Both the position numbers and the translations under genes were made by a program. The notes below the pieces were generated by a model, which was not told where the DNA came from, ran no database searches, and saw only the letters and a program-made list of their open reading frames with translations. From positions 1 to 64,000 of the forward strand of contig JAQTUE010000016.1 in NCBI GenBank assembly GCA_028710415.1: a DNA stretch of 64,000 nucleotides, given 5' to 3'. The DNA is from Paludibacter sp. (GTDB lineage Bacteria; Bacteroidota; Bacteroidia; Bacteroidales; Paludibacteraceae). This document shows positions 6,848 through 19,887 of this stretch, piece by piece; positions within the stretch are counted from its first letter, which is position 1, and every line of letters starts with the position of its first letter.

Positions 6848-9640
6848 ATGAAACACTTTACTTCAAAATTTCTTTTGATTGCTTTGTTCGCCTTTTTAGG
6901 CTTGAGCGCAATTGCACAAACAACCATTCAGGTTGGAGCAGGTAGTACCTACACCAAAATTCAAAGTGCTTATGACAACGGAATACCGGCTGATATTACT
7001 TCCGCAGGTGCTTACGTGATTGAACTTCAGGCGGATTATAATCCTGCCGGTGAAACCTATCCCATTACCCTGGGAGCTAAAACAGGAGCTAGTGCTACCA
7101 ATTCTATTACCATTAAACCGGCCACAGGAGTAACGAAAACGTTGAGTTGCCCCAATCAAACGGTTAACTTACCCGGTTGTGTGATTAATTCTGGAACTTC
7201 CATCACTGTGCCTGACGGTACCGGACTTTCAAACAGTATATATATTTCAAATGTCAAATATACCACTGCGATTCTAGGAGTGAGTGGAACAACAGTAACT
7301 GTTGGAACACAAACAACAACGAGCGGAACCTATGACATGGTTGCAGGTCCGGCTGTAGGAACAACAACCCTATACTTAAACGGCGCACAATTTGTGACCA
7401 TTGATGGGGTTGACAGAACAGGAACTACCCAACTAATCATTGACAATCCAAATAGAATAGCCTCCCAGAGTATTTTATTTAAAAACGATGCTTCGAACAA
7501 TACCATAAAAAACTGTACCGTGAAAGGCGCAAGTCAAATTTCAATTGCTGCTGTAACCGGAACAATATTTGATAATGGTACAATTTATATTTATAATACA
7601 ACTTCTACAGCTCCGGAAAAAGGGAATGATAACAATACGATCGATCATTGTGATATCGTTAATGGAAGTTCAATTCCTCTTACACATGTTTGCATCAGCG
7701 GATCTGCCACAGCCACAAATGACAACAATAAAATTACCAATTGTAATTTAGACAATGCTTGTTTGACTGTTAATACCTCAACTCTTACACCGGGTTATGT
7801 TGTGGTTTCTTCAAATACAACCAATACCGAGATCTCGAATAACCGAATGTATGCATCTGGAACGATAAGTCCAGCAGGCACCTATTCATATGGAATTATA
7901 ACTTCAAGTGGAATAAATACAAGTATCACTTCGAATATCGTAGGATATGGGGCTAAAGATGGATCTGGGAAATTTACTATTCCTGCAACTGCAACTGGAC
8001 CTTTGATGGCTGGGATTTATATAAAAGCAGGTTCCGCTACCGTTACGAATAATACAGTTGCAGGTTTTAATATCTTCTGCATGAACTTTAGTGGCATTTG
8101 GTTAGCAACAACAGCTAGTGGATCTGTAACGGGGAATGTGATCAATGATATTAAAAGTTCCACTACTTATCATACAGTGGCATTAGCCGGAATCTATTCA
8201 CAAACTTCAGGTACTGTTAGCTATTCAAATAATACGATCAGTAATTTTTCGAACGTGAATACATTAGCTTCTGACTTTGCCATGACAAAAGGACTCTATG
8301 TCGCAACTGCCTCTTCGTCAACGGCAAGTGGAAATACAATCTTCAATCTTACTGCAGGAGATCCTTCAGCAACAGCTCTTTCTAATCTGGCAATTGGAAT
8401 TGATGCAACAAAGAATATCGCTACTATTGAAAAAAATCTCATTTATAATATCAATGCTTTTAGTACTGCTAATACTGCCGTGATAAATGGAATAAAATTA
8501 AATGCAGGTGTTGATGCCGGATTTACCATCAAAAATAACGTGATTCGATTGGGAACTGATGTATTATCAAATGCCAACATTTATGGTATCTATCAAATTG
8601 CTGCTACGGCAGCAACCAATAAATTCTATATTTATCACAACAGCGTTTACATTGGGGGTACAGCACCTTCAACCACTCCTGTAGCAACCTATGCTTATAA
8701 CCGGACTACATCCGGCATTGTAGGAGTCATCGATTTGCGTAATAATATCTTATCGAACCAACGTGTTCAGGGTGCAGCTGAAAATCATTATGCTGTAGGA
8801 TTGTTGGCAGCCACTGATTTAGGGACAAGCAATTATAATATTTATCAATACAACGGCCAGTTTGGAATCATTGGTGCAACTAATAAGGCTGATCTGACAG
8901 CATGGCAAGGTGCTCTATATGCTGGCAATGATGCCAACAGTTATTCTTCGAATCCGCAATTTGTGGCACCAACGGCAGCTACTCCTGATTTGAAGATAAT
9001 CCCGAATGTCTATTCGGATGTTGATGCAAAAGGTTTTGATTTATCGGTAGTGGATGACTATTTTGGTTCAACCCGCAGCGGATTGTCTCCAACTGATATC
9101 GGAGCCTATGCATATACTTCGGATCTTGTAGCTCCAACAGTGACGATAAGTTCTACAACTCCAGAAATAACTAACGTTAATCCAATCCCTGTTACAATTA
9201 CTTTTAGTGAAGCAGTCACAGGTTTTGACATTACTGATTTAAATGTATCGAATGGTAATGCCGGTAATTTTGTTGCTGTAAATGCTACTACGTATACTGC
9301 GGATATTACACCTGCAGCCTATGGCCTTATAACTGTTGATATTGCGGCCGGTGCAGCCAGTGATGCCGTAACAAACGGCAATGTCGCAGCCACACAATTT
9401 ACACGTACGTATGATTTAGGCTCTGATGTACAAAATGTAAAAAGCCAGGTATTTGCTTATCCATCAAATAATGGAATTGTTATTATCGCTAAGCCGGGCC
9501 AGAATGCAACCATTTATTCCGCAACAGGCCAATTGGTCAAGAAATCAACCTTGTCTTCTGATAAAACCTTCATTGCTCTTCCACAAGGACTTTATGTTGT
9601 GTCGGTTGAAGCCTTTAAGTCAAAAGTTTTGGTGAAGTAA
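6848..9640 (+). CDS. large secreted parallel beta-helix protein with Ig-like and T9SS sorting domains
   Basis: A 930-residue surface or secreted protein. It has a signal peptide at 1-23 (FLGLSAIAQ). About residues 25-720 are rich in short Asn/Thr/Ser strands with NNTI, NNT and GIY turns, typical of right-handed parallel beta-helix folds (pectate-lyase or NosD-like). At about 765-858 there is one bacterial Ig-like domain (APTVTISSTTPE, then ITFSEAVTGFDITDLNV) of the Big_12 type. At about 861-930 there is a type A T9SS C-terminal domain ending SKVLVK. Export by T9SS with anchoring to A-LPS or release is inferred from that tail. Beta-helix proteins are often polysaccharide lyases or adhesins, but no catalytic residues can be assigned. 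It is flanked by terminators, so it is probably monocistronic. Confidence 0.85.
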   Translation: MKHFTSKFLLIALFAFLGLSAIAQTTIQVGAGSTYTKIQSAYDNGIPADITSAGAYVIELQADYNPAGETYPITLGAKTGASATNSITIKPATGVTKTLSCPNQTVNLPGCVINSGTSITVPDGTGLSNSIYISNVKYTTAILGVSGTTVTVGTQTTTSGTYDMVAGPAVGTTTLYLNGAQFVTIDGVDRTGTTQLIIDNPNRIASQSILFKNDASNNTIKNCTVKGASQISIAAVTGTIFDNGTIYIYNTTSTAPEKGNDNNTIDHCDIVNGSSIPLTHVCISGSATATNDNNKITNCNLDNACLTVNTSTLTPGYVVVSSNTTNTEISNNRMYASGTISPAGTYSYGIITSSGINTSITSNIVGYGAKDGSGKFTIPATATGPLMAGIYIKAGSATVTNNTVAGFNIFCMNFSGIWLATTASGSVTGNVINDIKSSTTYHTVALAGIYSQTSGTVSYSNNTISNFSNVNTLASDFAMTKGLYVATASSSTASGNTIFNLTAGDPSATALSNLAIGIDATKNIATIEKNLIYNINAFSTANTAVINGIKLNAGVDAGFTIKNNVIRLGTDVLSNANIYGIYQIAATAATNKFYIYHNSVYIGGTAPSTTPVATYAYNRTTSGIVGVIDLRNNILSNQRVQGAAENHYAVGLLAATDLGTSNYNIYQYNGQFGIIGATNKADLTAWQGALYAGNDANSYSSNPQFVAPTAATPDLKIIPNVYSDVDAKGFDLSVVDDYFGSTRSGLSPTDIGAYAYTSDLVAPTVTISSTTPEITNVNPIPVTITFSEAVTGFDITDLNVSNGNAGNFVAVNATTYTADITPAAYGLITVDIAAGAASDAVTNGNVAATQFTRTYDLGSDVQNVKSQVFAYPSNNGIVIIAKPGQNATIYSATGQLVKKSTLSSDKTFIALPQGLYVVSVEAFKSKVLVK

Positions 9641-9669
9641 ATGTAATTTTATAATTGAATATCAGTGTG

Positions 9670-9707
9670 GCCGTATCTTTAATAGAGGTACGGCTGCTTT
9701 GTTTTTT
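9670..9707 (+). terminator. Rho-independent terminator after the beta-helix gene
   Basis: The stem GCCGTA/TACGGC (9670-9675 with 9689-9694) is followed by a T-rich tail including six consecutive T. It lies 30 bases after the stop codon. Confidence 0.75.
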
Positions 9708-10369
9708 ATGGTTCGAAATTATATTCCTTCAAAAAAAATGATAAATGAAGTATGGAAAACTTGTCGCATTTATTTTTGAGCCGTTCCTGCCCTGTTTTCC
9801 GCAACGGGATACCCTCTGAAAATTTGACAACATTCTACAGTACAGCCTGCTTATCATCATTTTTCATCAAGTTTGACTTTATCTGTTTAGATTTCGGAGG
9901 TGTATAAGTTCGTTGATACCTGGTAGGAGTTCATTCAACAGATTAAAACACCGTCCATTAAAATTCAGGCATTTCTTTTGATTCTTTTTTTTATGTCTCA
10001 TTGTCATGATATCACCACGATGTCACTTACAACCAAAAAATAACCAACTAGTAAACCAGTAATAATCCATATATAATCCATCCTTATATAAATATGGATT
10101 ATATATGGATCATATATGGATTATTATTGGATTATATATGGATTATCGGCGACATCATGGCGACATCCTAGTGATACCAGGGTGGACAAATAAACCAACT
10201 TATAGCACTTGTCCGTTGAATAAGGCTTATTTCCTGTTGTGTGGAGGGAATAGGCAAAAAGGGAAATCGGATATGTCCTGTTTTAGGTATGAAAATGCTG
10301 GATGAAAGGTGTTTTATTGACTTTTCAAGAGGGCTGCCTTTCAAGGTTAAACAGAAGGTTGTTCCTAGT
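9708..10369. other. intergenic region of 660 bases without a convincing gene
   Basis: No open frame here shows family features. The only organised structure is the palindromic element at 10007-10185. Short frames that cross it consist of repeated Met-Asp-Tyr-Ile-Trp-like codons produced by the repeat itself and are not genes. Confidence 0.6.
10007..10185 (+). repeat. palindromic MITE-like element, copy A
   Basis: An element of about 180 bp made of alternating ATAATCCAT and ATGGATTAT blocks that can fold on itself, bordered by GATGTCGCC-type inverted ends. The core at 10053-10147 (95 bp) is, by direct base comparison, identical to the reverse complement of 51740-51834. The flanks are only similar. 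No coding capacity is seen. The structure fits a non-autonomous palindromic element. The family is not recognised. Confidence 0.85.
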
Positions 10370-10798
10370 TCAATATTCTGACAACAGGAGTGTTTGTATT
10401 GCAATATTGCTTTTATCAGCACCATGCTTGATAACACAGTCCTTTATACGCTTGCGGAACTTCCAGCAGGTCATTTGGTTTAAGCCCAATTGGTCCGAAT
10501 ATTCATACGAGGATATATCCTTGCCTTCCACACAGACCGTATAAGCGATATAGAATGCTTTGTTAATAGGAAACTTGCAGTTGTGGAACAAGGTGTGGGC
10601 GGTAGCCGATTCTTCAGTCTTACAGCGCGTACAGCGTCGGGAACCGGTTGTCTTACCTTCGCAATAGTTATCGTGTCCACATTTACGGCATACAAATCCA
10701 TTCTCCCACTTCACTTCAGCAATAAAATTCAGGGTTTTATCACTATCCTTGAAAAATTCCTCGGCTAGTTCTTTCTTTATTTGTTTCTTTAGTAACAT
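10370..10798 (-). CDS. solo zinc-ribbon protein related to the N-terminus of IS1595-type transposases
   Basis: A 142-residue protein with two CxxC pairs (CRKCGHDNYC and CTRC), as in the zinc ribbon that heads IS1595 transposases, then the typical FHNCKFPINKAFY helix and a helix-turn-helix-like stretch (SSYEYSDQLGLNQ, CWKFRKRI). The DDE nuclease (ISXO2) domain that should follow is absent, and no frame downstream supplies it. The ATG at 10798 is preferred to one at 10834 because a TACTTTTG -7 box (10832-10839) would leave the earlier ATG upstream of transcription. It is either a truncated transposase or a domesticated DNA-binding protein. The divergent arrangement with the arsM-like operon and the iterons between them make a regulatory role worth testing. 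Confidence 0.65.
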   Translation of the reverse strand: MLLKKQIKKELAEEFFKDSDKTLNFIAEVKWENGFVCRKCGHDNYCEGKTTGSRRCTRCKTEESATAHTLFHNCKFPINKAFYIAYTVCVEGKDISSYEYSDQLGLNQMTCWKFRKRIKDCVIKHGADKSNIAIQTLLLSEY

Positions 10799-10831
10799 GG
10801 TTTTCTCAGTTATTGGGATGAAATCAGGATA

Positions 10832-10839
10832 CAAAAGTA
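10832..10839 (-). promoter_or_regulatory. possible -7 element for the zinc-ribbon gene
   Basis: On the minus strand the bases read TACTTTTG, matching TAnnTTTG, 34 bases before the ATG at 10798. A matching -33 TTG is not evident; that position falls in the iteron array. Confidence 0.5.
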
Positions 10840-10857
10840 ATAAAAACTTTTTAATTG

Positions 10858-10926
10858 GTGATATAAAAGTAATTTAATTAGTGATATTAATGTAATTTAA
10901 GTAGTGATACTATTGTAATTTAAAAT
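10858..10926. repeat. three 23-bp tandem iterons between divergent genes
   Basis: Three head-to-tail units at 10858-10880, 10881-10903 and 10904-10926 share GTGATA, six variable bases, then GTAATTTAA. A degenerate fourth may lie at 10835-10857. Two helical turns of period put each unit on about the same DNA face, as in operator arrays. The third unit contains the -33 TTG of the promoter for the gene at 11146. Confidence 0.8.
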
Positions 10927-10942
10927 AGAATACATATCTTTG
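10913..10942 (+). promoter_or_regulatory. promoter of the ArsM-like/radical SAM operon
   Basis: TTG at 10913-10915, 19 bases, then TATCTTTG at 10935-10942: a full match to the Bacteroides-type -33/-7 promoter. The -33 box lies inside the third iteron, so a protein bound to the array would block or modulate it. Confidence 0.75.
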
Positions 10943-11055
10943 CCCCGTGATTCAGTTGAATGAACTTAAACGATTTACTATTTTACAATTTACAATTTTA
11001 CTATTTACCATTTACCAATTCTTATTCTCCTAATATCAATTGCCTTAATCAACTT

Positions 11056-11143
11056 AATTAACCAATTAACCAATTAACCAATCAACCAATCAACCAATTA
11101 ACCAGTCAACCAATTAACCAGTCAACCAATCAACCAATCAACC
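11056..11143 (+). repeat. octamer tandem repeat in the leader of the ArsM-like gene
   Basis: Eleven consecutive 8-base units of the form A(A/G)T(T/C)AACC end two bases before the ATG at 11146. The leader before them (from about 10970) is also built of TTTACNATTT-like words. Across about 175 bases there are only about five G. The leader is therefore almost free of G and should stay unstructured. Slippage of whole octamers would alter leader length but not the reading frame. Confidence 0.85.
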
Positions 11144-11145
11144 AA

Positions 11146-11814
11146 ATGATAACAGAAGCAATCAACGAACGATACACGCAACTGAGTGAAACAACCTGTT
11201 GCTTATCCTGCGGTGGAGCCATTAATTATGCGAAGCCACAAACCGGAGAAATATGTGTCGACCTTGGCAGCGGCCGTGGAAATGATGTCATCAGGATGGC
11301 CGAAACAGTTGGGGAAACCGGACATGCCTACGGGATTGATATTTCGGAAGGAATGATTGCGAAAGCCAACGCCAACATACTAAAATTTGAAGTAAAGAAT
11401 GCAACAATTCTGAAGGCTGAACTTGAAAATTTTCCGTTTGAAAACAACAGTACCGACCTGGTGATATCAAACTGCACCATTAATCATAGTTCCGACAAGC
11501 AGGCTGTATGGAATGAAATCTACAGGATATTGAAAACGGGTGGTCGATTTGTGGTGAGCGATATTTATGCAACGAAAGAAATTGCCAAAGAGTACCGGGA
11601 AGATCCTGTTGCCATTGCTGAATGCTGGGCAGGAGCTGAAACCAAGGATTCGTATTTGAGGATGTTGAAACTGGCAGGATTCCATGAGATCCGCATTTAC
11701 GAAGAATCGGCACCATATGCAAAAGGGAAAGCAGAGGTTGCCAGCTTTACAATCAGTGGGGTAAAAACTGATTCTAAAAAGAGCAACTACCAGGATATTT
11801 GCTGGAATGCATGA
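11146..11814 (+). CDS. arsM: ArsM-like SAM-dependent methyltransferase
   Basis: A cytoplasmic class I methyltransferase of 222 residues. The SAM-binding glycine motif is DLGSGRGND (about 37-45), followed by the acidic end of strand 2 (YGIDISEGM). Post-motifs FENNSTDLVISNC and ILKTGGRFVVSD are as in ArsM arsenite methyltransferases. Three cysteine sites line up with the three that bind As(III) in known ArsM: Cys18-Cys19/Cys22 near the N-terminus, Cys110 in SNCTIN and Cys160 in AECWAGA. It is shorter than most ArsM (usually 260 residues or more). No arsR, arsB or arsC is near. The substrate could be arsenite, another thiophilic metalloid, or the neighbouring Cys-rich peptide; only the methyltransferase fold is firm. 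The gene starts two bases after an octamer repeat. Confidence 0.75.
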   Translation: MITEAINERYTQLSETTCCLSCGGAINYAKPQTGEICVDLGSGRGNDVIRMAETVGETGHAYGIDISEGMIAKANANILKFEVKNATILKAELENFPFENNSTDLVISNCTINHSSDKQAVWNEIYRILKTGGRFVVSDIYATKEIAKEYREDPVAIAECWAGAETKDSYLRMLKLAGFHEIRIYEESAPYAKGKAEVASFTISGVKTDSKKSNYQDICWNA

Positions 11815-11956
11815 CCCCTAACCCCTCCCGATAAATCGGGATAAATTGCGGGGAACAAGATAAGAAATTGTTTACATATAAAGATCTAATCAATTCTTTA
11901 TATTTAGAAAATCAAAAGATATTTCATTTCCAATTAATCAATTCAAATCAAGAAGT

Positions 11957-12064
11957 ATGAAGAGTGTAGTGAAGAAGAGTTGCTGTTCAGGCAACAATGT
12001 CGAGTCGAAGCAGGCACAATGTTGTGCTAAGGTTTCAATTATTGTGGCTGGCTGTCACGATTAA
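11957..12064 (+). CDS. 35-residue Cys-rich peptide, candidate RiPP precursor or metal-binding peptide
   Basis: A short gene read directly from the bases. It has an ATG at 11957 behind an A-rich leader (CAAATCAAGAAGT) and a TAA at 12062. The peptide starts MKSVVKKSCCSG, has a second Cys pair in QAQCCAK and ends VSIIVAGCHD. Cys residues fall at 9, 10, 22, 23 and 33 and His at 34. Five Cys in 35 residues is far above chance for this genome. It lies between the ArsM-like gene and a radical SAM/SPASM gene, the enzyme class that modifies ribosomal peptides. No Gly-Gly leader site and no match to a precursor family I know. It may be a modified natural product, a peptide cofactor or a metalloid-binding peptide. 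Confidence 0.65.
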   Translation: MKSVVKKSCCSGNNVESKQAQCCAKVSIIVAGCHD

Positions 12065-12071
12065 AAAGAAC

Positions 12072-12132
12072 CCCTAACCCCTAAAGGGGAATAAGATAAC
12101 TCATTTCACTTTAATGGTTAGGGTAGTTTTTT
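12072..12132 (+). terminator. attenuator or terminator between the peptide and radical SAM genes
   Basis: CCCTAACC at 12072-12079 pairs with GGTTAGGG at 12116-12123 and is followed by TAG and six T. An alternative internal hairpin, CCCCTAAAGGGG, lies within the loop. Partial termination here would make more of the peptide than of the enzyme, a common ratio in RiPP operons. Confidence 0.55.
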
Positions 12133-12252
12133 AAAAATTAATCTCTTGCAATATAGAAGGTGTTGGATGATTAATATATCTATCAGGGATAAATCATATT
12201 ACAGTGAATAATTCTAACTTAATTCCCGTCGGATGACGGAGTAAGGGTAAAC

Positions 12253-13551
12253 ATGCAATCGAAACACAATATTATCACCAAAATAAAGAACTCAGAAGAT
12301 TACTTCCTGGTCAATCCGTTGAGTAAATCGGCTGATATCATCAGTGCGAATGAAGTCAGGATGCTGAAACACCAGCTTGATCCAAGCGGGGAATTCACGC
12401 AAAAGGGATACCTGACTAATGAAGCATCAGAGAAAAGAGCTTTTAAACTTGCTTACCTGGACTTTACAGAAAAACGGGAAGCTGACGAGACCCAATTGTT
12501 CTTTGTTCCCAATTATTCGTGCAACTTCGCTTGTACCTATTGTTACCAGGAAGGCTATAATCCGGTTCAACAGGTATTGAGCACTGAAATTATAGATTCT
12601 TTTTTTGACTATGTAAAAGTTGAATTTGCAGGCCGTCCGAAATATGTAACGGTATTCGGTGGGGAGCCATTGCTTCCCGGGGAGAACCAACGGAAGCTGA
12701 TTGCTTATTTCCTTGAAAAGTCAACTGAAGCAAAACTGGATGTGGCTTTTGTTACCAACGGGTATACACTCTTAGCTTACCTTGATTTGCTGAAAACAGC
12801 CAGTATCCGTGAAGTGCAGGTGACCCTGGACGGTACGGAAGAAATTCATGATGCACGTCGGTTTATGAAAGGGAAACAACCTACATTCAGCCGGATTGTT
12901 GAAGGAATCGATGCCAGCCTGGAAGCCGGTATTTCCATTAACCTGCGCATGGTAGCCGATAAGGAAAATATTGATAACCTGCCTGCCCTTGCCCGTTTTG
13001 CCATAGATAAAGGGTGGACAAGCTCACCGTTATTTAAAACGCAGATCGGTAGGAATTACGAATTGCATTATTGCAACAGTACGCCTGAGAAACTATTCGA
13101 CAGGGCTTTGTTGTATGAAAAAATATATGAACTGCTTCAGGAACATCCTTATATTGCCGAATTTTATAAACCTGCTTTCTCAATAGCACGCTATATTTCG
13201 GAACATGAAGCAGTGCCAACACCTTTATTCGACTCATGTACGGCATGCAAAACGGAATGGGCATTTGACTTTACTGGGGCCATTTATTCTTGCACCGCCA
13301 CAGTAGGCAAACAGGGAGAAGAACTGGGTACTTTTTATCCATCGGTTACCAAAAACGAAGCTGTGATATCGGAATGGCAAAACCGGGATGTGACTACCAT
13401 TGAAGAATGTAAAAGCTGTTCAGTAGCACTTGCCTGTGGAGGAGGCTGTGCCTCGGTAGCTAAAAATAAGAACGGGAATATTAATTCGCCGGATTGCAGG
13501 CCGATAAAAGAATTGCTGGCATTGGGAGCGGCGCAGTATTTGAAAGTTTGA
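12253..13551 (+). CDS. radical SAM/SPASM peptide-modifying enzyme
   Basis: A 432-residue enzyme. The radical SAM cluster motif CxxxCxxC is Cys90-Cys94-Cys97 in SCNFACTYCYQ, followed by the GGEP motif (FGGEPLL). The N-terminal 80 residues resemble the small winged-helix-like extension common in peptide maturases. The C-terminal SPASM region has a Cys series (DSCTACKTEW, YSCTAT, EECKSCSVALACGGGCAS, PDCRP) able to hold two auxiliary 4Fe-4S clusters. This layout is that of sactipeptide and thioether synthases and anaerobic sulfatase-maturing enzymes. No sulfatase gene is in the window, and a Cys-rich peptide lies just upstream, so peptide modification is the favoured role. A thioredoxin-fused reductase follows 52 bases downstream and may supply reducing power. 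Confidence 0.85.
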   Translation: MQSKHNIITKIKNSEDYFLVNPLSKSADIISANEVRMLKHQLDPSGEFTQKGYLTNEASEKRAFKLAYLDFTEKREADETQLFFVPNYSCNFACTYCYQEGYNPVQQVLSTEIIDSFFDYVKVEFAGRPKYVTVFGGEPLLPGENQRKLIAYFLEKSTEAKLDVAFVTNGYTLLAYLDLLKTASIREVQVTLDGTEEIHDARRFMKGKQPTFSRIVEGIDASLEAGISINLRMVADKENIDNLPALARFAIDKGWTSSPLFKTQIGRNYELHYCNSTPEKLFDRALLYEKIYELLQEHPYIAEFYKPAFSIARYISEHEAVPTPLFDSCTACKTEWAFDFTGAIYSCTATVGKQGEELGTFYPSVTKNEAVISEWQNRDVTTIEECKSCSVALACGGGCASVAKNKNGNINSPDCRPIKELLALGAAQYLKV

Positions 13552-13603
13552 AGGGTTTGAAAGGTTTGGGAGTTAAGTTAGAAAGTAAATTATTCATAGT
13601 ATT

Positions 13604-14878
13604 ATGAAAGAGATAACAGCAGTAGAGTTTGAGCAGGAGGTGCTTCAGGGAGGGAAAGTAATCCTTGACTTTTACTCATCAGAATGTCCGCCCTGTGAAG
13701 CAGTAGCCCCGAAATTTGAAGCGTTGGCAACACTATACGGGAAGAAAATTAAATTTCTAAAGATATTCAGGCAACAAAACAGGGTGCTGGCAACTGAGCT
13801 TGGAGTCAGTTCATCGCCCACCTTGCTGTTCTTCGATGCAGGGAAACAAGTAGCAACCTCTTTGCATGGCGGGATAAAAAAAGCAGAGATTCAGGAACGT
13901 TTGGATAAGATGATTTCTGCAGAAGAAGTAACTGAGATTAAATCGAATCAAAAATCATTTGTAACGGAATATGATGTAGCCATTTTAGGAGGTGGACCTG
14001 CCGGACTGACTGCCGGAATTTATTTAGGGCAGGCTAAGATAAATACAGTTTTAATAGACCCTGCTTTACCCGGTGGTTATATGGGTATCACACATAAAGT
14101 ATCAAATTATCCTGGATTTACAGAACCTCAGCCCGGATTTATGTTGGCGCATTTTATGAGTGAACAGGCTAAGGGAAGTGGCATTGATTTTAAGGTAGCT
14201 GTGGATATAAGCTCCGTTGATTTGAAGAAGAAAGAAATTTTAATAGATCAACTGGAAACTATTCGTGCCGGGAAAATCATCATTGCCACGGGTACTTCCC
14301 CAAATCCAATGAATATCCCCGGAGAGAAAGAGTATCAGGGCAAGGGCATTTCTTATTGCGCAACCTGTGATGCTAAATATTATGAGGATAAGGATGTTGT
14401 GGTAATCGGAGGAGGAAACTCTGCAGTAGAGGAATCACTTTATATTACAAAATTTGCCAAAACGGTAACTATTGTTCATCGGTCTGATAAATTGAGAGCG
14501 AATGAAATAGCCATAGAAAACGTACTGTCCCATCCGAAAATAAACATCCTTTTTGGGCATCAACCACGTAGCTTTGTGCGACAAGGTGAGAAAATGATGA
14601 CCACTATTGAGAATCTGAAATCTAAGGAAGTTTCTACGTTGGTGTCTGACGGTGTATTTGTATTCATTGGCCTTAAATCAAATGTGGAAGTCTTTGGAGA
14701 GTCACTGCCAGAAGCAGATAAATGGGGATACCTTATTACAGATGAAGATATGAAAACCAGTATGCCAGATGTATTTGCCATTGGTGATATTACGAGTAAG
14801 AAATACCGGCAGATTACGACTGCTGTGGCTGATGGGACTATTGCGGCAATTGCAATATCAAAAGAAATTTTAAACTAA
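13604..14878 (+). CDS. thioredoxin-thioredoxin reductase fusion
   Basis: A 424-residue cytoplasmic flavoenzyme. Residues 1-105 form a thioredoxin domain with the unusual active site Cys28-Pro-Pro-Cys31 in SSECPPCEA. A linker leads to a low-molecular-weight thioredoxin-reductase domain from about residue 122: FAD motif GGGPAGLTAG, redox pair CATC (Cys252, Cys255), NADPH motif GGGNSAVEES and the closing FAIGDI segment. Most reductases use a separate thioredoxin or carry it C-terminally, so an N-terminal fusion is less common. The CPPC site differs from CGPC in redox tuning. Placement after the radical SAM gene suggests a dedicated reductant for cysteine-rich products of this operon. Confidence 0.9.
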   Translation: MKEITAVEFEQEVLQGGKVILDFYSSECPPCEAVAPKFEALATLYGKKIKFLKIFRQQNRVLATELGVSSSPTLLFFDAGKQVATSLHGGIKKAEIQERLDKMISAEEVTEIKSNQKSFVTEYDVAILGGGPAGLTAGIYLGQAKINTVLIDPALPGGYMGITHKVSNYPGFTEPQPGFMLAHFMSEQAKGSGIDFKVAVDISSVDLKKKEILIDQLETIRAGKIIIATGTSPNPMNIPGEKEYQGKGISYCATCDAKYYEDKDVVVIGGGNSAVEESLYITKFAKTVTIVHRSDKLRANEIAIENVLSHPKINILFGHQPRSFVRQGEKMMTTIENLKSKEVSTLVSDGVFVFIGLKSNVEVFGESLPEADKWGYLITDEDMKTSMPDVFAIGDITSKKYRQITTAVADGTIAAIAISKEILN

Positions 14879-14883
14879 CTCTA

Positions 14884-14916
14884 ACCTTTTCCAAAGGTTC
14901 AAACTTTGGAAAAGGT
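14884..14916. repeat. TTTCCAAAG hairpin element, copy 1
   Basis: Inverted arms ACCTTTTCCAAAG (14884-14896) and CTTTGGAAAAGGT (14904-14916). The same design recurs at 15588-15618 and 35541-35573, so this is a dispersed intergenic palindrome that may also act as a processing site or terminator. Confidence 0.75.
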
Positions 14917-14949
14917 GTAAATAAAATAAACAATTAAAAAATAAATGGT

Positions 14950-15165
14950 ATGAAAACAAATGTTGGAACTATTGACACGGTAGTCAGGATACTGATTGCC
15001 CTGATTGTAATTGGATTGTATTTTATGAATGTTGTTTCCGGAACACTGGCCATTGTATTGCTTGTTGTTGCAGGGGTATTCTTCATTACCGGTTTAGTTA
15101 AGTTTTGCCCATTGTATATGATGCTTGGAATCAATTCAGGCAAGAAGAAAGTATCAGTTAAATAA
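14950..15165 (+). CDS. DUF2892 inner-membrane protein (YgaP-like membrane domain)
   Basis: A 71-residue protein with two hydrophobic segments (VRILIALIVIGLYF and TLAIVLLVVAGVFFIT) and the conserved FCPLYMMLGI ending. This is the DUF2892 pattern, which in E. coli YgaP is fused to a rhodanese domain. Here the membrane part is separate and a rhodanese gene follows 19 bases downstream, so the pair probably does together what YgaP does in one chain: sulfur handling at the inner membrane. The start at ATG 14950 follows an A-rich leader. The protein ends in a basic Lys-rich tail on the cytoplasmic side. Confidence 0.85.
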   Translation: MKTNVGTIDTVVRILIALIVIGLYFMNVVSGTLAIVLLVVAGVFFITGLVKFCPLYMMLGINSGKKKVSVK

Positions 15166-15184
15166 TTACTCAATCAACAGAATT

Positions 15185-15574
15185 ATGAAAATTAGAATTT
15201 TAATCCCGGTATTGCTTCTGTTCTTATCGACATTTACAGTCCTGGAAGCTCAGACTAAAACAGAAGTAAATTCAAAACAGGCCAGTGTCCTGTTACAAAA
15301 AGACAGCAAACTGATTGTCCTGGATGTGCGTACCCCGGAAGAATTTAAGGAAGGCCATATTAAAGGAGCCATCAACATTGACATCCGTCAGGAAGATGCA
15401 TTCAGTAAAATTGATAAACTCAACAAGAATGCAAAATATTTAGTGTACTGCCGTACTAACCACCGGAGTGGACTGGCAGTGGATCATATGCTGCAAAACG
15501 GTTTTAGCAATGTGTACCAAATGATGGATGGTTTCCCCGGTTGGGCAGCCAATAAGCTGGCAATACAAAAATAA
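15185..15574 (+). CDS. exported single-domain rhodanese
   Basis: A 129-residue sulfurtransferase. The ATG at 15185 begins a signal peptide (MKIRILIPVLLLFLS, cleavage after about LEAQ). An in-frame ATG at 15125 would overlap the DUF2892 gene and is rejected. The rhodanese domain shows LIVLDVRTPEEFKEGHI, the active-site loop CRTNHRS with its persulfide-forming Cys in YLVYCRTNHRS, and the DGFPGW end motif. It therefore acts in the periplasm, unlike the cytoplasmic rhodanese at 17998. It belongs to the row of thiol and persulfide genes from 13.6 to 19.3 kb. Confidence 0.88.
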   Translation: MKIRILIPVLLLFLSTFTVLEAQTKTEVNSKQASVLLQKDSKLIVLDVRTPEEFKEGHIKGAINIDIRQEDAFSKIDKLNKNAKYLVYCRTNHRSGLAVDHMLQNGFSNVYQMMDGFPGWAANKLAIQK

Positions 15575-15587
15575 TCAATAAACAACA

Positions 15588-15618
15588 ACTATTCCAAAGT
15601 TTCAAACTTGGGAAAAGT
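15588..15618. repeat. TTTCCAAAG hairpin element, copy 2
   Basis: Inverted arms around ATTCCAAAGT and ACTTGGGAAAAGT (15588-15600 and 15606-15618), a less perfect copy of the palindromes at 14884 and 35541. Confidence 0.65.
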
Positions 15619-15647
15619 CAGAAGATATAAAAAAACAGAGTATAGGT

Positions 15648-17948
15648 ATGGAAAAGATTGTAATAATAGGTGGAGTGGCAGCAGGTGCGACAGCCGCAGC
15701 CAAAGTAAGACGGATTTCACCGGATACTGAAATCACAATGCTCGAATCAGGGCCTGACATTTCATTTGCCAATTGCGGACTACCGTATTTTATTGGCGGT
15801 GACATAAAAAGCAGGTCGAAACTGATATTGCAGAGCCCTGAAAGTTTCAAGGAACAATATGATGTAAATGTGTATATAAACACCAAAGTGACTGCCATTG
15901 ACAGGACCGGGCATCTGGTTCAGACTACGAATACTGAAAGTGGTGTTCAACAAACCTTTGAATATACCAAACTGATTCTGGCACAAGGAGGACGCCCTAT
16001 TACCCCAACATTGTCCGGTGCTGACTACGATCATGTTTTTCAGCTTTGGACATTGGAAGATATGGATAAAATATCCAACTACTTAGATGAAAAGAAGCCA
16101 AAAACTGCTGTTGTAGTGGGAGGTGGATTTATCGGGTTGGAAATGGTGGAAGCCCTGGTAAAAAGAGGCTTGAAAGTACATGTAGTGGAAATGATGCCTC
16201 ATGTGATGGCCATCATGGAAGCTGAAACTGCCGGGTTTATTGAAAACGAAATGTTGTCGTACGGTGTTGGGATTCATGTTAATACCGGTGTTACTGAGAT
16301 TACTCACAAGGCAGTTAAACTGGATAACGGCAAAATGATAGAAGCAGATATGGTATTGCTTTCCATTGGAGTGAGACCAACTTTGCAACTGGCGATAGAT
16401 GCCGGACTTGAATTGGGTGAAGCGGGTGGTTTACTCGTAAACTCACAGTTGCAAACAAATGACCTAGATATATTTGCAGCAGGTGACATGGTTGAAATTG
16501 AGCACCGGGTGAATGGAAAGAAAGTTCGTATTCCACTGGCAGGACCTGCAAACCGCCAGGGAAGAATTGCTGCAGAAAATGCATTGGGTGGCAACCACGA
16601 TTACAAAGGTGCTTTGGGGACTTCGGTAGTCCGTGTTTTCGAAGCAGTAGCCGGAACAACTGGCTTGTCATTAAAACAGGCCAGGTCATTGGGAATTGAT
16701 GCTGATGCCGTGGTGGTTCACAAAGAACATCACACGTCGTATTATCCCGGAGCAGAAACTGTTACAACCTTGTTGGTTTATGATCGTAATACTGCCATCA
16801 TCCTGGGTGGACAAACAGCCGGATATAAAGGTGCTGATAAAAGGCTGGATATTATTGCAACTGCAACAGCTGCAAAACTGACTATCCACGATATTGCGGA
16901 TGTTGATTTTGCTTATTCACCTCCCATCGGAACAGCCAATGATGCCATTAATATGGCTGCCTATACGGCTGAGAATAAAATGTCGGGTTTCAGTCCGTCA
17001 GTAACAGTATCTGAACTTGACCGTTTTGTTATTGGTAAGAATCCTGTTTTTGTGGATGTACGTGATGTCTTTGCATTTGAAAAAAGCCATATCAAAGGAG
17101 CAATTCATTTGCCTTTGGAATTACTGTTGCAGGAACTGAATTCCATACCTGTAAACCGTCCGGTTATTGTGTATGATGAAACCGGTAAAAAAGGGCATCA
17201 GGCACTTCGTATGCTTTTGGGAGCAGGTTTTAAATCGGTTACCAATATCTCTGGAGGACATACTTCCTTGCAACGCTATGCACGTGCTGTAGGATTTAAA
17301 AATATTCAGTTGGATTTATTGCCCGTTGAATCAAAATCGATCAATGTAGAAACAGAAGAAGCTGAGGCAACAACAAGCGAAGCCGTGGTCGATTTTAATT
17401 CCCCGATTGTAGTTGATGTGCGTTCAAAGGAAGAATTCAGGTCGGGGGCATATCCGGATGCTGTAAATATCCCATTGGACGAATTAATGAGCCGTTATGA
17501 AGAACTGGGAAATAACGGAGCCAGGGATATTACGGTTTATTGTGCTTCCGGAGCACGTTCGGCTTATGCTCAACGAACTTTGATGCAAATCGGTTATGAG
17601 AATGTAAAAAATGGAGGCGGATTGGCAGCCATGATGGCTCATCATGCTGCAAAACCAGCAGCACCTGTTGCTGCAGCTTCAACAACAGAATCGAATGAAC
17701 CTTTGATCGTAGATGTCCGTACCGCACAGGAATTTGCAGGTGGTGCCTATCCGGGTGCAATCAACATACCACTTGACGAAATTCAAAAGAGCATAACTAA
17801 ATTTGGAAGCCACTCGAGGGAAATAACCGTATATTGTGCTTCCGGTGCACGATCGGCTTATGGGCAACGGGTTTTACAACAACTGGGTTTTACAAATGTA
17901 AAAAATGGTGGTGGCATTATGCAAATGATGTCAAAAAAAATAAACTGA
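15648..17948 (+). CDS. CoA-disulfide/polysulfide reductase fused to three rhodanese domains
   Basis: A 766-residue cytoplasmic flavoprotein. Residues 1-450 form a CoA-disulfide reductase-like unit: FAD motif IGGVAAGATAAAK, the single redox Cys43 in FANCGLPYF, NADH motif VVGGGFIGLEM, and the dimerisation domain. Known CoADR-rhodanese enzymes (Npsr type) add one rhodanese domain and reduce polysulfide or CoA-persulfide. Here three follow. Domain 1 (about 470-560) has Asp510 where the catalytic Cys should be (VYDETGKKG), so it is probably inactive. Domain 2 (about 580-655) has Cys632 in CASGARS. Domain 3 (about 680-766) has Cys730 in the same loop. Domains 2 and 3 are very similar and look like a recent duplication. 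Confidence 0.92.
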   Translation: MEKIVIIGGVAAGATAAAKVRRISPDTEITMLESGPDISFANCGLPYFIGGDIKSRSKLILQSPESFKEQYDVNVYINTKVTAIDRTGHLVQTTNTESGVQQTFEYTKLILAQGGRPITPTLSGADYDHVFQLWTLEDMDKISNYLDEKKPKTAVVVGGGFIGLEMVEALVKRGLKVHVVEMMPHVMAIMEAETAGFIENEMLSYGVGIHVNTGVTEITHKAVKLDNGKMIEADMVLLSIGVRPTLQLAIDAGLELGEAGGLLVNSQLQTNDLDIFAAGDMVEIEHRVNGKKVRIPLAGPANRQGRIAAENALGGNHDYKGALGTSVVRVFEAVAGTTGLSLKQARSLGIDADAVVVHKEHHTSYYPGAETVTTLLVYDRNTAIILGGQTAGYKGADKRLDIIATATAAKLTIHDIADVDFAYSPPIGTANDAINMAAYTAENKMSGFSPSVTVSELDRFVIGKNPVFVDVRDVFAFEKSHIKGAIHLPLELLLQELNSIPVNRPVIVYDETGKKGHQALRMLLGAGFKSVTNISGGHTSLQRYARAVGFKNIQLDLLPVESKSINVETEEAEATTSEAVVDFNSPIVVDVRSKEEFRSGAYPDAVNIPLDELMSRYEELGNNGARDITVYCASGARSAYAQRTLMQIGYENVKNGGGLAAMMAHHAAKPAAPVAAASTTESNEPLIVDVRTAQEFAGGAYPGAINIPLDEIQKSITKFGSHSREITVYCASGARSAYGQRVLQQLGFTNVKNGGGIMQMMSKKIN

Positions 17949-17997
17949 AATCAGGTTTTGAATGAATAATTAGTCACTAATTTAAATTAAAATAATA

Positions 17998-18312
17998 ATG
18001 TTAGCAGCAATAAAAAAATTACTGGGTATTCAACCTAAGGTAAACTTTTCTGAATTAGTACAAGAAGGTGCTATTATTTTGGATGTCCGTACCAAAGGAG
18101 AATTTGGAATGGGTCATATTAAGGGTTCGGTGAATATTCCGGTTGAACAACTGGGCAAGAACCTTCACAAATTTAAGGATAAGCAACGGCCTATCATTAC
18201 CTGTTGTGCGTCAGGCATGAGGAGTGCCTCTGCAAAAGGCCTTCTTACATCGAATGGTTTTTCCAATGTGCACAATGGTGGCAGATGGCAAAGTTTGAAT
18301 TATAAATTGTGA
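17998..18312 (+). CDS. cytoplasmic single-domain rhodanese
   Basis: A 104-residue sulfurtransferase without a signal peptide. Key features are AIILDVRTKGEFGMGHI, the catalytic loop CASGMRS with Cys70 (preceded by a second Cys69), and the NVHNGGRW end. It begins 49 bases after the triple-rhodanese gene. Its loop is close to those of fused domains 2 and 3 (CASGARS), which suggests a shared origin within the cluster. It could carry persulfide sulfur between the flavoenzyme and other acceptors. Confidence 0.9.
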   Translation: MLAAIKKLLGIQPKVNFSELVQEGAIILDVRTKGEFGMGHIKGSVNIPVEQLGKNLHKFKDKQRPIITCCASGMRSASAKGLLTSNGFSNVHNGGRWQSLNYKL

Positions 18313-18331
18313 TAGTTAATACAATACGATT

Positions 18332-18754
18332 ATGGAGACATTCTTGATACTGATTGGCAGTCTGATAGGTGCCTTTGTGTTATTGAACATTTATGCCCGG
18401 GTTAAGATGAAAAATACACCCCAGGTTGTTGATCATAAAGATATACTGACCCTATCCGATAAGAACTTTACGCAACAGACGAAGGGGAAAGTAGTGTTAG
18501 TTGATTTCTGGGCTGCCTGGTGTGCCCCATGCCGTATGATGGCTCCGGTATTGAATGATGTAGCCGGTGACCTGACCGGTAATCAAAGGGTGGGTAAAAT
18601 AAACATTGAACAACAAAAGTTGCTTGTCAACCAGTTTAAAGTCCGCAGTATCCCAACCCTGATCCTGTTCAGCAATGGCAAGGAAGTAAAACGGTTTGTT
18701 GGGATTAAGCAGAAGGAATTTCTTATAAAAGAAATTCAAGAAGTTTCTATTTGA
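18332..18754 (+). CDS. membrane-anchored thioredoxin
   Basis: A 140-residue thioredoxin with an N-terminal hydrophobic helix (FLILIGSLIGAFVLLNIY), then a standard domain: VDFWAAWCAPC with redox Cys64 and Cys67, and the cis-Pro loop SIPT. The site WCAPC departs slightly from the usual WCGPC. The anchor is followed by positive residues (RVKMK), which by the positive-inside rule may leave the domain in the cytoplasm. Only 19 bases separate it from the rhodanese gene upstream. Confidence 0.88.
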   Translation: METFLILIGSLIGAFVLLNIYARVKMKNTPQVVDHKDILTLSDKNFTQQTKGKVVLVDFWAAWCAPCRMMAPVLNDVAGDLTGNQRVGKINIEQQKLLVNQFKVRSIPTLILFSNGKEVKRFVGIKQKEFLIKEIQEVSI

Positions 18755-18797
18755 TCAATTATAAAGTAATAGTAGTAATGACTTATAAATAAAGTAT

Positions 18798-19277
18798 ATG
18801 AAAAGGATCAATTATATTTACATAGGTTTAATGCTTGTGCTTATTGCAGCATCATTTTTATGGATTAACAGACAAAAAGAAGAAGCAAAAGCCAGGGTTT
18901 ATGAAGTAAAAAAGATGGAGCCAATTCATCTGACTAAAGCTGAGTTCTTATCAAAAGTTGACAACTTTCAAACAAATCCAACAGAATGGAAATATCTTGG
19001 CAATAAGCCCTGTATTATCGATTTTTACGCAACCTGGTGCGGACCTTGTAAAATGGTTGCACCTATATTGGACGATTTAGCTAAAGAATATGATGGTCAG
19101 ATTTATATCTACAAAGTAGATGTTGATGCCGAACCGGAACTTGCCAATGCTTTTGGCATTCAAAGTATTCCAACTTTATTCTTTTGTCCTATGAAAGGTG
19201 ACCGGCAGATTATGCAGGGCGGGATGCCAAAAGAATCATTCGAAAAGGCAATTGCTGAGATTTTGTTGAAGAAATAA
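18798..19277 (+). CDS. membrane-anchored thioredoxin, second
   Basis: A 159-residue thioredoxin. The N-terminal segment (YIYIGLMLVLIAASFLWI) is a signal anchor followed by a charged linker. The domain has FYATWCGPCKMVAPIL with Cys81 and Cys84 and cis-Pro in SIPTLFF. The anchor is preceded by Lys-Arg and the domain could face the periplasm, unlike its neighbour. With the exported rhodanese it would give a thiol relay on that side, but topology is inferred. It is the last intact gene of the redox operon. Confidence 0.88.
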   Translation: MKRINYIYIGLMLVLIAASFLWINRQKEEAKARVYEVKKMEPIHLTKAEFLSKVDNFQTNPTEWKYLGNKPCIIDFYATWCGPCKMVAPILDDLAKEYDGQIYIYKVDVDAEPELANAFGIQSIPTLFFCPMKGDRQIMQGGMPKESFEKAIAEILLKK

Positions 19278-19303
19278 GAAGGAAAACGAAGATTAGTAAT
19301 TGT

Positions 19304-19693
19304 ATGAAAAAAGCGTCTTAATTTATTATTTCCAAACGTATTGTCATTCTGGCCCTTTTTGGCGGTTTAACCTATTTCACTAAAACCTATTTTGATATAT
19401 CGATTTGGTACATCATTTTATTTGGAATTGGAACAGGTGTAATATTTGGGAAAGTTTTTTGCCGTTGAATGTGTTCGATAGGTTTTCTGATGGAGATGTT
19501 AATGGGAGGTGGTGGCAAAAACCAATTTTCAAGCATGTACCAGTACCATAAGATGGGTTGTCCGATTGCCTGGGTGTCAGGGCTGTTGAATAAATGGTCG
19601 CTGTTTCGGATTAAATTAAATACCGATACCTGCAAGAATTGTGGTGTCTGTGATAAAGAATGCTACATCTCAACCCTCGAACCGGTTAAATAA
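19304..19693 (+). pseudogene. decayed 4Fe-4S membrane protein (polyferredoxin-like)
   Basis: One frame reads through from ATG 19304 to TAA at 19691 with two internal stops: TAA at 19319-19321 (codon 6) and TGA at 19466-19468. Between them lies a hydrophobic helix region (IVILALFGGLTYF, IILFGIGTGVIFG). The second stop replaces the Trp of the conserved CRWMCP motif (here CR-stop-MCS), and the Pro is also changed to Ser. Downstream, CKNCGVCDKEC is a complete 4Fe-4S motif, but the frame ends soon after it. It probably passed electrons to the thioredoxins and rhodaneses before decay. Use of an ATG at 19469 to make a short ferredoxin is possible but unsupported. Confidence 0.75.
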
Positions 19694-19722
19694 GTACCCT
19701 AATGCAAAGGTAATTAATTAAA

Positions 19723-19753
19723 ATTGCATCCGGCAAGAACCGGATGCAATTTA
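19723..19753. terminator. terminator hairpin between convergent units
   Basis: An 11-bp perfect stem, ATTGCATCCGG (19723-19733) with its complement at 19740-19750 and a 6-base loop. It lies between the end of the redox operon and the convergent gene at 19888. Confidence 0.8.
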
Positions 19754-19887
19754 TGTAACAACCTGGTTGAAATGGAACAATCAACTCAGTTTTTGAATCA
19801 TTTTTTAATTGAAATGTAATACAACCAATTTTAAAAGATTGCGCTGCAAAATCAAATGAAAAACCTATTTACGTCATTATGAAAATA

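Follow-up and report, generated by a model that had tools for sequence, protein, structure and literature searches.

A near-invariant cysteine peptide encoded between an ArsM-like methyltransferase and a radical SAM/SPASM enzyme: a possible peptide cofactor or carrier

What is the product of a 35-codon, cysteine-rich reading frame that lies between genes for an ArsM-like methyltransferase and a radical SAM/SPASM enzyme, and what might the cell use it for? The three genes were found in a 64,000-nucleotide stretch of Paludibacter DNA, here called the window, and are followed by a gene for a fused thioredoxin and thioredoxin reductase (Table 1). An initial annotation placed the three genes, whose coordinates all agree with the sequence on recheck, and proposed that the peptide is the substrate of the radical SAM enzyme, a metalloid carrier for the methyltransferase, or both. 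The reading preferred here is that the cassette both produces a ribosomal peptide and employs it as a cofactor or carrier, which would be RiPP-type, intracellular and thiol-based; judged from sequence comparisons, its chances appear to be about even.

Table 1. Features of the cassette and its surroundings (positions in the window)
Feature	Position	Strand	Remarks
Divergent IS1595-type zinc-ribbon protein	10370..10834	-	PF12760 the only domain above cut-off; present once in own genome
About three 23-bp direct repeats	10850..10923	.	Putative operator
ArsM-like class I SAM methyltransferase, 222 aa	11146..11814	+	Shorter than solved ArsM proteins
Precursor-like Cys peptide, 35 aa	11957..12064	+	Sequence MKSVVKKSCCSGNNVESKQAQCCAKVSIIVAGCHD
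Radical SAM/SPASM maturase, 432 aa	12253..13551	+	
Thioredoxin (CPPC)–thioredoxin reductase (CATC) fusion	13604..14878	+	
YgaP-like membrane protein (PF11127), accessory	14950..15165	+	Homologue in 18/83 loci
Rhodanese, accessory	15185..15574	+	Homologue in 25/83 loci; start by eye, listed ORF from 15125
CoA-disulfide-reductase-like flavoprotein with three rhodanese domains, accessory	15648..17948	+	Homologue in 22/83 loci
Rhodanese, accessory	17998..18312	+	
Thioredoxin-like protein, accessory	18332..18754	+	
Thioredoxin-like protein, accessory	18798..19277	+	

Is the short reading frame a gene at all? Relatives were collected (the best 80 of 184 were retained). Once identical radical SAM genes were collapsed and L002, which fell below the relative threshold, was left out, 83 distinct ones remained from loci L001 to L111 and the window. 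The conserved small ORF that the annotation had proposed to look for beside such genes is present upstream of 81 of the 83. In the other two loci (L064 and L085), the radical SAM gene is displaced, and the peptide and methyltransferase genes are still together elsewhere in the genome. Eleven of the 16 core residues are invariant in all 81 copies, while the core DNA has 81 different sequences, with free and heavy synonymous change. Because of this position and this invariance in the face of synonymous change, the ORF is a real gene and not a chance reading frame.

The peptide consists of a leader (about residues 1–19) and a core (residues 20–35) that reads AQCCAKxSxxxxGCHD-stop. With start codons assigned by regular expression, 66 of the 81 copies begin with M[KR]S[VL][VI], followed by a variable middle and the near-invariant 16-residue end, so that leader and core are separate in the 81 copies, as they are in RiPP precursors. 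Two CC pairs and a GCHD end had been singled out in the annotation: the pair at residues 22–23 and the GCHD end are conserved, but the pair at 9–10 is not, and 51 of the 81 copies contain only the three core cysteines. The expected CC-CC-GCH pattern therefore failed in its first element. The spacing within the core is fixed, and it is the leader that varies. The peptide has no match in Pfam or NCBIfam. A profile search with the peptide only, own genome excluded, gave strong matches in 395 phylum genomes (five) and 395 class genomes (two); all seven sit between a methyltransferase and a radical SAM gene, two repeating known peptides (L088 and L105) and five being new. Three weak matches (L118, L119 and L120; E 0.004–0.008) had no cassette gene in their loci and were treated as chance. 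No description of a peptide/radical SAM/methyltransferase system was found in the literature covered, which lay outside subscription journals and preprints, and GCHD, CCAK, arsenite and thioredoxin reductase are all absent from the available part of a Bacteroidales RiPP survey (PMC10352776).

Both parts of the description of the adjacent enzyme as a radical SAM protein with SPASM cysteines held throughout: the CX3CX2C motif (C90, C94 and C97) and eight SPASM cysteines (C329, 332, 347, 386, 389, 395, 399 and 415) are invariant in 83/83. It is best classed as a SPASM maturase nearest to CteB, and it lies below the cut-off of every family among the 25 of 74 NCBIfam matches listed. These include CefB (NF038107; 132 bits where the cut-off is 600, over enzyme residues 16–430), TIGR04463 (121/525), PapB (NF047865; 118/340), Clo7bot (113/600) and SCIFF (TIGR03974; 80/425). 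A firm grouping with sulfatase-maturing enzymes would have told against a role on the peptide, but on scores, the only measure used, the sulfatase-maturase model reached 69 bits (cut-off 349) and the four best RiPP-maturase models 113–132. The closest PDB entries by both sequence and fold are 5why and 5wgg, which we take to be CteB, followed by SuiB; the full-length Foldseek match to 5why/5wgg has a TM score of 0.51–0.54 with a large rmsd of about 17. The enzyme model is itself moderate (mean pLDDT 72.6, with the SPASM part mostly below 50; structure models were built from 41 and 37 rows), and in it the N-terminal residues, about 1–75, are predicted to form a b3-a3 arrangement consistent with a RiPP recognition element. 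The moderate model and the large rmsd count against the preferred reading, and so do the eight SPASM cysteines, which resemble those of fully ligated enzymes more than those of open-site CteB.

Several known systems offer partial parallels. The family name of CefB, the best NCBIfam match, implies a cysteine peptide partner, but one with a cysteine at every fifth residue, whereas the core here has three. The SCIFF peptide is highly conserved, with CteB as its thioether-forming maturase and the nearest solved structure to the present enzyme; here, on the other hand, the core has three cysteines, and the partners are an ArsM-like methyltransferase and a thioredoxin–thioredoxin reductase fusion. 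PapB-like spacing, Cys-X3-acceptor, is possible at C23–S27, but PapA carries Cys-X3-Asp/Glu motifs (PMC9413430), and the acceptor site here is without Asp or Glu.

The genes are also inherited together. Among 48 genomes of the genus, the peptide and the methyltransferase occur in an identical set of 28, on one contig in 27 of them, and the radical SAM gene occurs in those 28 plus two that have only partial copies; all three are absent from 18. Put another way, 28 of the 30 genomes with an enzyme match have the peptide, and the remaining two have part of the enzyme gene only. This is a short conserved ORF co-inherited with an adjacent modifying enzyme, as is typical of RiPP precursors. Two cases speak against the preferred reading. 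G252 has the peptide and methyltransferase, yet its match to the orthologous enzyme is fragmentary and contains two internal stops. In one genome the peptide occurs twice, the second copy lying next to DUF1847 and DUF302 genes, and neither a methyltransferase nor a radical SAM gene was seen within about 1.5 kb of it. Given that solo copy, the peptide may also serve some purpose independent of the methyltransferase. It also lends something to the idea that the product is an unmodified small cysteine protein, a metal buffer or regulator, whose operon mate acts on another substrate, and the modification is, after all, a prediction from sequence. This idea is nevertheless improbable, given the near all-or-none co-occurrence with the enzyme, a maturase fold nearest to that of CteB, and an N-terminus conserved apart from the core. 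The proposed role of the peptide as the radical SAM substrate is an inference with good support from co-occurrence, adjacency, the leader and core layout and CteB as best structural match, and the enzyme probably modifies the peptide.

Would such a product leave the cell? Radical SAM/SPASM enzymes of other bacteria make exported or antimicrobial peptides, but the chance of this here appears very slim: the core is near-invariant across Bacteroidota and one locus titled Spirochaetia, and no peptidase or ABC exporter was recognised among the recurrent neighbour genes scanned. The scan compared 122 hand-picked genes of 324 operon-chained neighbours with Pfam (families listed, 25 of 48) and found a thioredoxin domain in 34 of the 122.

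The methyltransferase is built like arsenic methylators. It shares the fold, the SAM-methyltransferase domain and the three As(III)-binding cysteine positions of ArsM, and its best Foldseek structures are CrArsM and CmArsM (E about 1e-18), with human AS3MT also found. Matches were present in 77 loci, 75 of them long enough and stop-free for alignment; six loci have none, namely L064, L085 and four that lie close to contig ends, one of which (L038) has a partial copy. The three ArsM-type sites noted in the annotation were borne out: C22, C110 and C160 align with the CmArsM triad, Cys72/174/224 (PMC7248198), and are kept in all 75 full-length copies, as are C19 and C37, with C18 in 74 of 75. The protein differs from ArsM in its length of 222 residues, in three further conserved cysteines and in having no ACR3 or ArsC found adjacent, and it scores 189 bits against the PRK11873 model, under the cut-off of 263. 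In the ArsM/ArsS arsenosugar pair, too, an ArsM-type enzyme works with a radical SAM enzyme, but the one here belongs to the type of the SPASM peptide maturases, and a conserved peptide gene lies between the two.

The cassette might alternatively serve metalloid detoxification, the three-cysteine peptide chaperoning As(III), Sb(III) or the like to the methyltransferase and the fusion acting as reductant. The invariant triad and the structural matches fit this, as do the three invariant thiols of the peptide, which include a vicinal pair and together resemble the As(III) site of ArsD. However, the ars operon context expected for ArsM is missing at the 83 loci, whose flanks are of unequal length: with probes from the own genome's ars operon, ACR3 and ArsC were each found near the cassette in 0/83 and an ArsR-like gene in 2/83. 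The own genome has a separate ars operon elsewhere, with its own ArsM-type protein (38% identity to the cassette methyltransferase). ACR3 occurs in 44 of the 48 genus genomes (41 above cut-off), with or without the module; it therefore does not discriminate and was dropped as a marker. Detoxification is thus possible but rather unlikely.

Genes of thiol and sulfur chemistry are frequent around the cassette. The fusion has a full-length homologue in 78 of the 83 loci, its cysteines 28/31 and 252/255 being kept in 77 of 78 (the remaining row has a gap at each), and together with the methyltransferase, peptide and radical SAM genes it makes up the only near-constant set. Common neighbour types are thioredoxins, rhodaneses, DUF302 (34 of 83 loci) and DUF1847 (31), with SQR-like genes in 20 and 8 and TauE in 7. 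A modified peptide could accordingly be a persulfide or thiol carrier, charged by rhodanese and reduced by the fusion, with the methyltransferase capping the sulfur or a peptide thiol. The rhodaneses, CoA-disulfide reductase–rhodanese, SQR-like, YgaP-like membrane, TauE, DUF302 and DUF1847 neighbours would suit this, as would the second peptide copy next to the latter two; a DUF302 gene of unknown function also lies inside sox clusters of sulfur oxidisers (PMC5037610). Against it, the sulfur genes vary between loci, it is not evident what an ArsM-type triad would do in sulfur chemistry, and the sulfur probes were drawn from the loci themselves, so that their counts are no fair contrast to those of the ars probes. 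A sulfane-sulfur role is likewise possible but rather unlikely; the neighbour genes favour thiol or sulfane-sulfur redox at least as much as metalloids.

Starting from the genes, their co-occurrence, the invariance and the cysteine sites, all of which are observed directly, we infer a cofactor or carrier pathway of five steps, the first two being firmer than the last three. The radical SAM/SPASM enzyme would bind the leader through its N-terminal domain and then add a cross-link within CCAKxS. This would most likely be a Cys thioether, for example between C23 and the invariant Ser at position 27. The product would remain in the cytoplasm, since the neighbours scanned include no recognisable peptidase or exporter that is shared, and its leftover thiols and C-terminal Cys-His-Asp would hold a soft, thiol-loving element or group, such as sulfane sulfur or a trivalent metalloid (As or Sb, for instance). 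The methyltransferase would receive this group at its three-Cys site and methylate it, or methylate it while peptide-bound, and the fusion would re-reduce both peptide and methyltransferase. The full version is doubtful as a whole: in it, the peptide, once modified, would act as a cofactor that can be used again and again, offering a metalloid or sulfane sulfur to a dedicated, ArsM-descended methyltransferase and being recycled by the fusion. If true, this would be a peptide cofactor for inorganic methyl chemistry.

How might the cassette be controlled? The zinc-ribbon protein, in which no transposase catalytic domain was found, is a possible regulator. Among the 62 loci that extend 1.5 kb or more upstream, 28 have its gene in divergent orientation no further than 2 kb from that of the methyltransferase. 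The 23-bp repeats are a possible operator. In a direct-repeat scan upstream of the methyltransferase, the best triple repeat beat 20 plain shuffles in only 10 of 32 loci, and in the window it was the AACCAATC array. AGTGAT occurs 54 times against 2.7 expected in the 32 intergenic regions upstream of the methyltransferase, a count that is not an independent test since the motif was picked by eye from the repeat-scan output. Rfam gave no match at gathering thresholds over 9600–20000, and a promoter and terminator scan gave 11 promoter sites where 12.2 were expected and 5 terminators where 3.8 were.

The hosts are Bacteroidota known mainly from metagenomes, with one locus titled Kapaibacterium and one Spirochaetia. 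A link to mercury methylation, an idea prompted by this host range, was rejected: of the 48 genomes of the genus, PF03599, a proxy for HgcA, was found in G276 and, with a score under the cut-off, in G251, and neither of these belongs to the 30 enzyme-positive ones. Nor does the system appear to be plasmid-borne, as the 176 plasmid records matching the enzyme are all below 60% identity (best among those listed, 30%).

The peptide thus defines a family outside Pfam and NCBIfam with near-fixed partners: a methyltransferase, a SPASM maturase and a thioredoxin–thioredoxin reductase. The invariance of its core suggests a housekeeping or cofactor-like role, which to our knowledge is unusual among RiPPs. 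Peptide and two enzymes are small enough for co-expression work. Taken together, the evidence suggests that the peptide is a cofactor or carrier of a new kind, used in the chemistry of sulfur or of metalloids.

The positions of the methyltransferase, peptide and radical SAM genes in the initial annotation are borne out by the window sequence (see table). The peptide, MKSVVKKSCCSGNNVESKQAQCCAKVSIIVAGCHD, matches no Pfam or NCBIfam model. Relatives of the radical SAM/SPASM enzyme were collected from 358 same-family genomes, 36 of which match at E values up to 1e-30 (one, G295, at merely 31% identity), and from a public set with one genome per species, where the best 80 of 184 relatives were used. 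Collapsing identical copies left 83 distinct loci, window included. The initial annotation had proposed a conserved small open reading frame beside homologous enzyme genes as a check, and a same-ended peptide is encoded upstream in 81 of the 83 loci.

Conservation is concentrated in the core, the last 16 residues (AQCCAKxSxxxxGCHD-stop), of which 11 (AQCCAK, S and GCHD) are identical in 81/81 copies and five are variable. The 81 core DNAs all differ and encode 28 core peptides. Since the invariant residues are encoded by freely varying synonymous codons, the sequences indicate that strong purifying selection acts on the peptide as a protein. Before the core, M[KR]S[VL][VI] fits the N-terminus in 66 of 81 copies (start codons having been set by regular expression), and the middle differs in both length and sequence. 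Of the two CC pairs initially described, the one at residues 22–23 lies in the invariant core, while that at 9–10 is a subgroup feature: 30 of the 81 copies have any cysteine before the core, and 51 have the three core cysteines only.

The peptide is also linked to its neighbors. Among 48 genomes of the genus, peptide and methyltransferase occur in the same 28, sharing one contig in 27 (a contig end splits them in G261). The enzyme is found in these 28 plus G248 and G256, each with a partial gene only; in the other 18 genomes, several of them incomplete, none of the three was found at the thresholds used. In G252 (contig 445), the orthologous enzyme match is a fragment with two internal stops, and peptide and methyltransferase are present. 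The fetched stretches of loci L064 and L085 have neither peptide nor methyltransferase; these occur together on another contig in the L064 genome and about 10 kb away, on a contig of equal length, in that of L085. Thus, methyltransferase and peptide remain together even where the enzyme gene lies apart from them. The peptide profile on its own, run against two evenly drawn sets (395 genomes each, one from the phylum and one from the class), gave seven strong matches outside the own genome, all seven between methyltransferase and enzyme (two, L112 and L121, repeat the L088 and L105 peptides), and three weak matches without cassette linkage.

Genes and repeats of the cassette region and the own-genome ars operon
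Feature	Location	Strand	Remarks
Tandem repeat ATATGGATTAT	window 10092–10146		five copies
IS1595-type zinc-ribbon gene	window 10370–10834	−	divergent, 5' of cassette
23-bp repeats	window 10850–10923		precede cassette
8-bp tandem array AATCAACC	window 11047–11145		12 copies; ends right before methyltransferase start codon
Methyltransferase	window 11146–11814	+	
Peptide	window 11957–12064	+	
Radical SAM/SPASM enzyme	window 12253–13551	+	
Trx-TrxR fusion	window 13604–14878	+	
ars operon	L131 (G000 contig 72) 3886–9886	−	names by eye except ACR3, ArsM-type

The peptide is very probably the substrate of the radical SAM/SPASM enzyme, as initially proposed. CX3CX2C, eight SPASM cysteines and one more (C274) are invariant in 83/83 enzymes. 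The top NCBIfam models are peptide maturases (CefB, 132 bits; TIGR04463, 121; PapB, 118; Clo7bot, 113); the sulfatase maturase model scores 69 bits, and the enzyme falls below the cut-off in all 25 families listed of 74. The closest solved relative by sequence is 5wgg, and the closest to the predicted fold are 5why/5wgg (presumably CteB), with SuiB next. (The model is only fair, with a pLDDT of 72.6, a poor SPASM end, and a TM to CteB of 0.51–0.54 with large rmsd.) The N-terminal 75 residues form a predicted β3-α3 unit resembling a recognition element.

Is the methyltransferase an arsenic enzyme? Arsenite methyltransferases are its best solved relatives, by sequence and by fold, and Cys 22/110/160 align with CmArsM Cys 72/174/224. 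These three, C19 and C37 are invariant in 75/75 methyltransferases, and C18 in 74/75. The protein has 222 residues versus 321–387 in solved ArsM proteins. With PRK11873, a model for arsenite methyltransferases, it scores 189 bits, the cut-off being 263. The own genome carries, on a different contig, an ars operon encoding ArsR, an ArsC-type phosphatase, a GNAT protein, a glutathione-synthesis-like fusion, ACR3 and an ArsM-type protein (266 aa) 38% identical to the module methyltransferase. The latter is therefore probably not the cell's standard arsenic enzyme, though it keeps the metalloid-binding triad.

In the window, the enzyme gene is followed by genes for the thioredoxin-thioredoxin reductase (Trx-TrxR) fusion, a membrane protein of the YgaP type, rhodaneses, a protein that resembles CoA-disulfide reductase and carries three rhodanese domains, and two thioredoxin-like proteins. 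When the 83 loci, with flanks of unequal length, were probed with genes of the own-genome ars operon, none showed ACR3 or ArsC and two showed an ArsR-like gene. Loci-derived probes found DUF302 (34), DUF1847 (31), rhodanese (25), CoA-disulfide reductase-rhodanese (22), SQR-like (20 and 8) and YgaP-TM (18) genes. The contrast is suggestive only, since the probe sets were chosen differently, the ars probes came from one genome and flank lengths differed. The DUF302 and DUF1847 genes, mostly downstream of the core cassette, may encode partners of the peptide. One genome has a second, solo peptide copy just upstream of DUF1847 and DUF302 genes (L141 of G1089, at ~5.1 kb; L138), and neither a methyltransferase nor a radical SAM gene lies within ~1.5 kb of it.

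The zinc-ribbon protein, encoded by a single-copy gene in the own genome and with no catalytic domain found, may be a regulator that derives from a transposase and has direct repeats as its operator. A similar divergent gene occurs in 28 of 62 loci having at least 1.5 kb upstream. AGTGAT, chosen by eye from repeat-scan output before counting, occurs 54 times (2.7 expected) in 32 intergenic regions with such a gene divergent to the methyltransferase, never reversed and with a successive spacing of 20–24 bp in 18/26 cases; 40 loci without the zinc-ribbon gene have 24 (5.0 expected).

Radical SAM-modified cysteine peptides are already a known kind. Neither Pfam, NCBIfam nor the literature searched shows this family of peptides or its combination with an ArsM-like methyltransferase and a Trx-TrxR fusion. 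No export or protease gene was recognized among recurrent neighbors (122 of 324 operon neighbors scanned; 25 of 48 families listed). Together with the near-invariant core, this makes a thiol cofactor or carrier that stays inside the cell the most likely product; its cargo would with equal probability be a metalloid, as first suggested, or sulfane sulfur.
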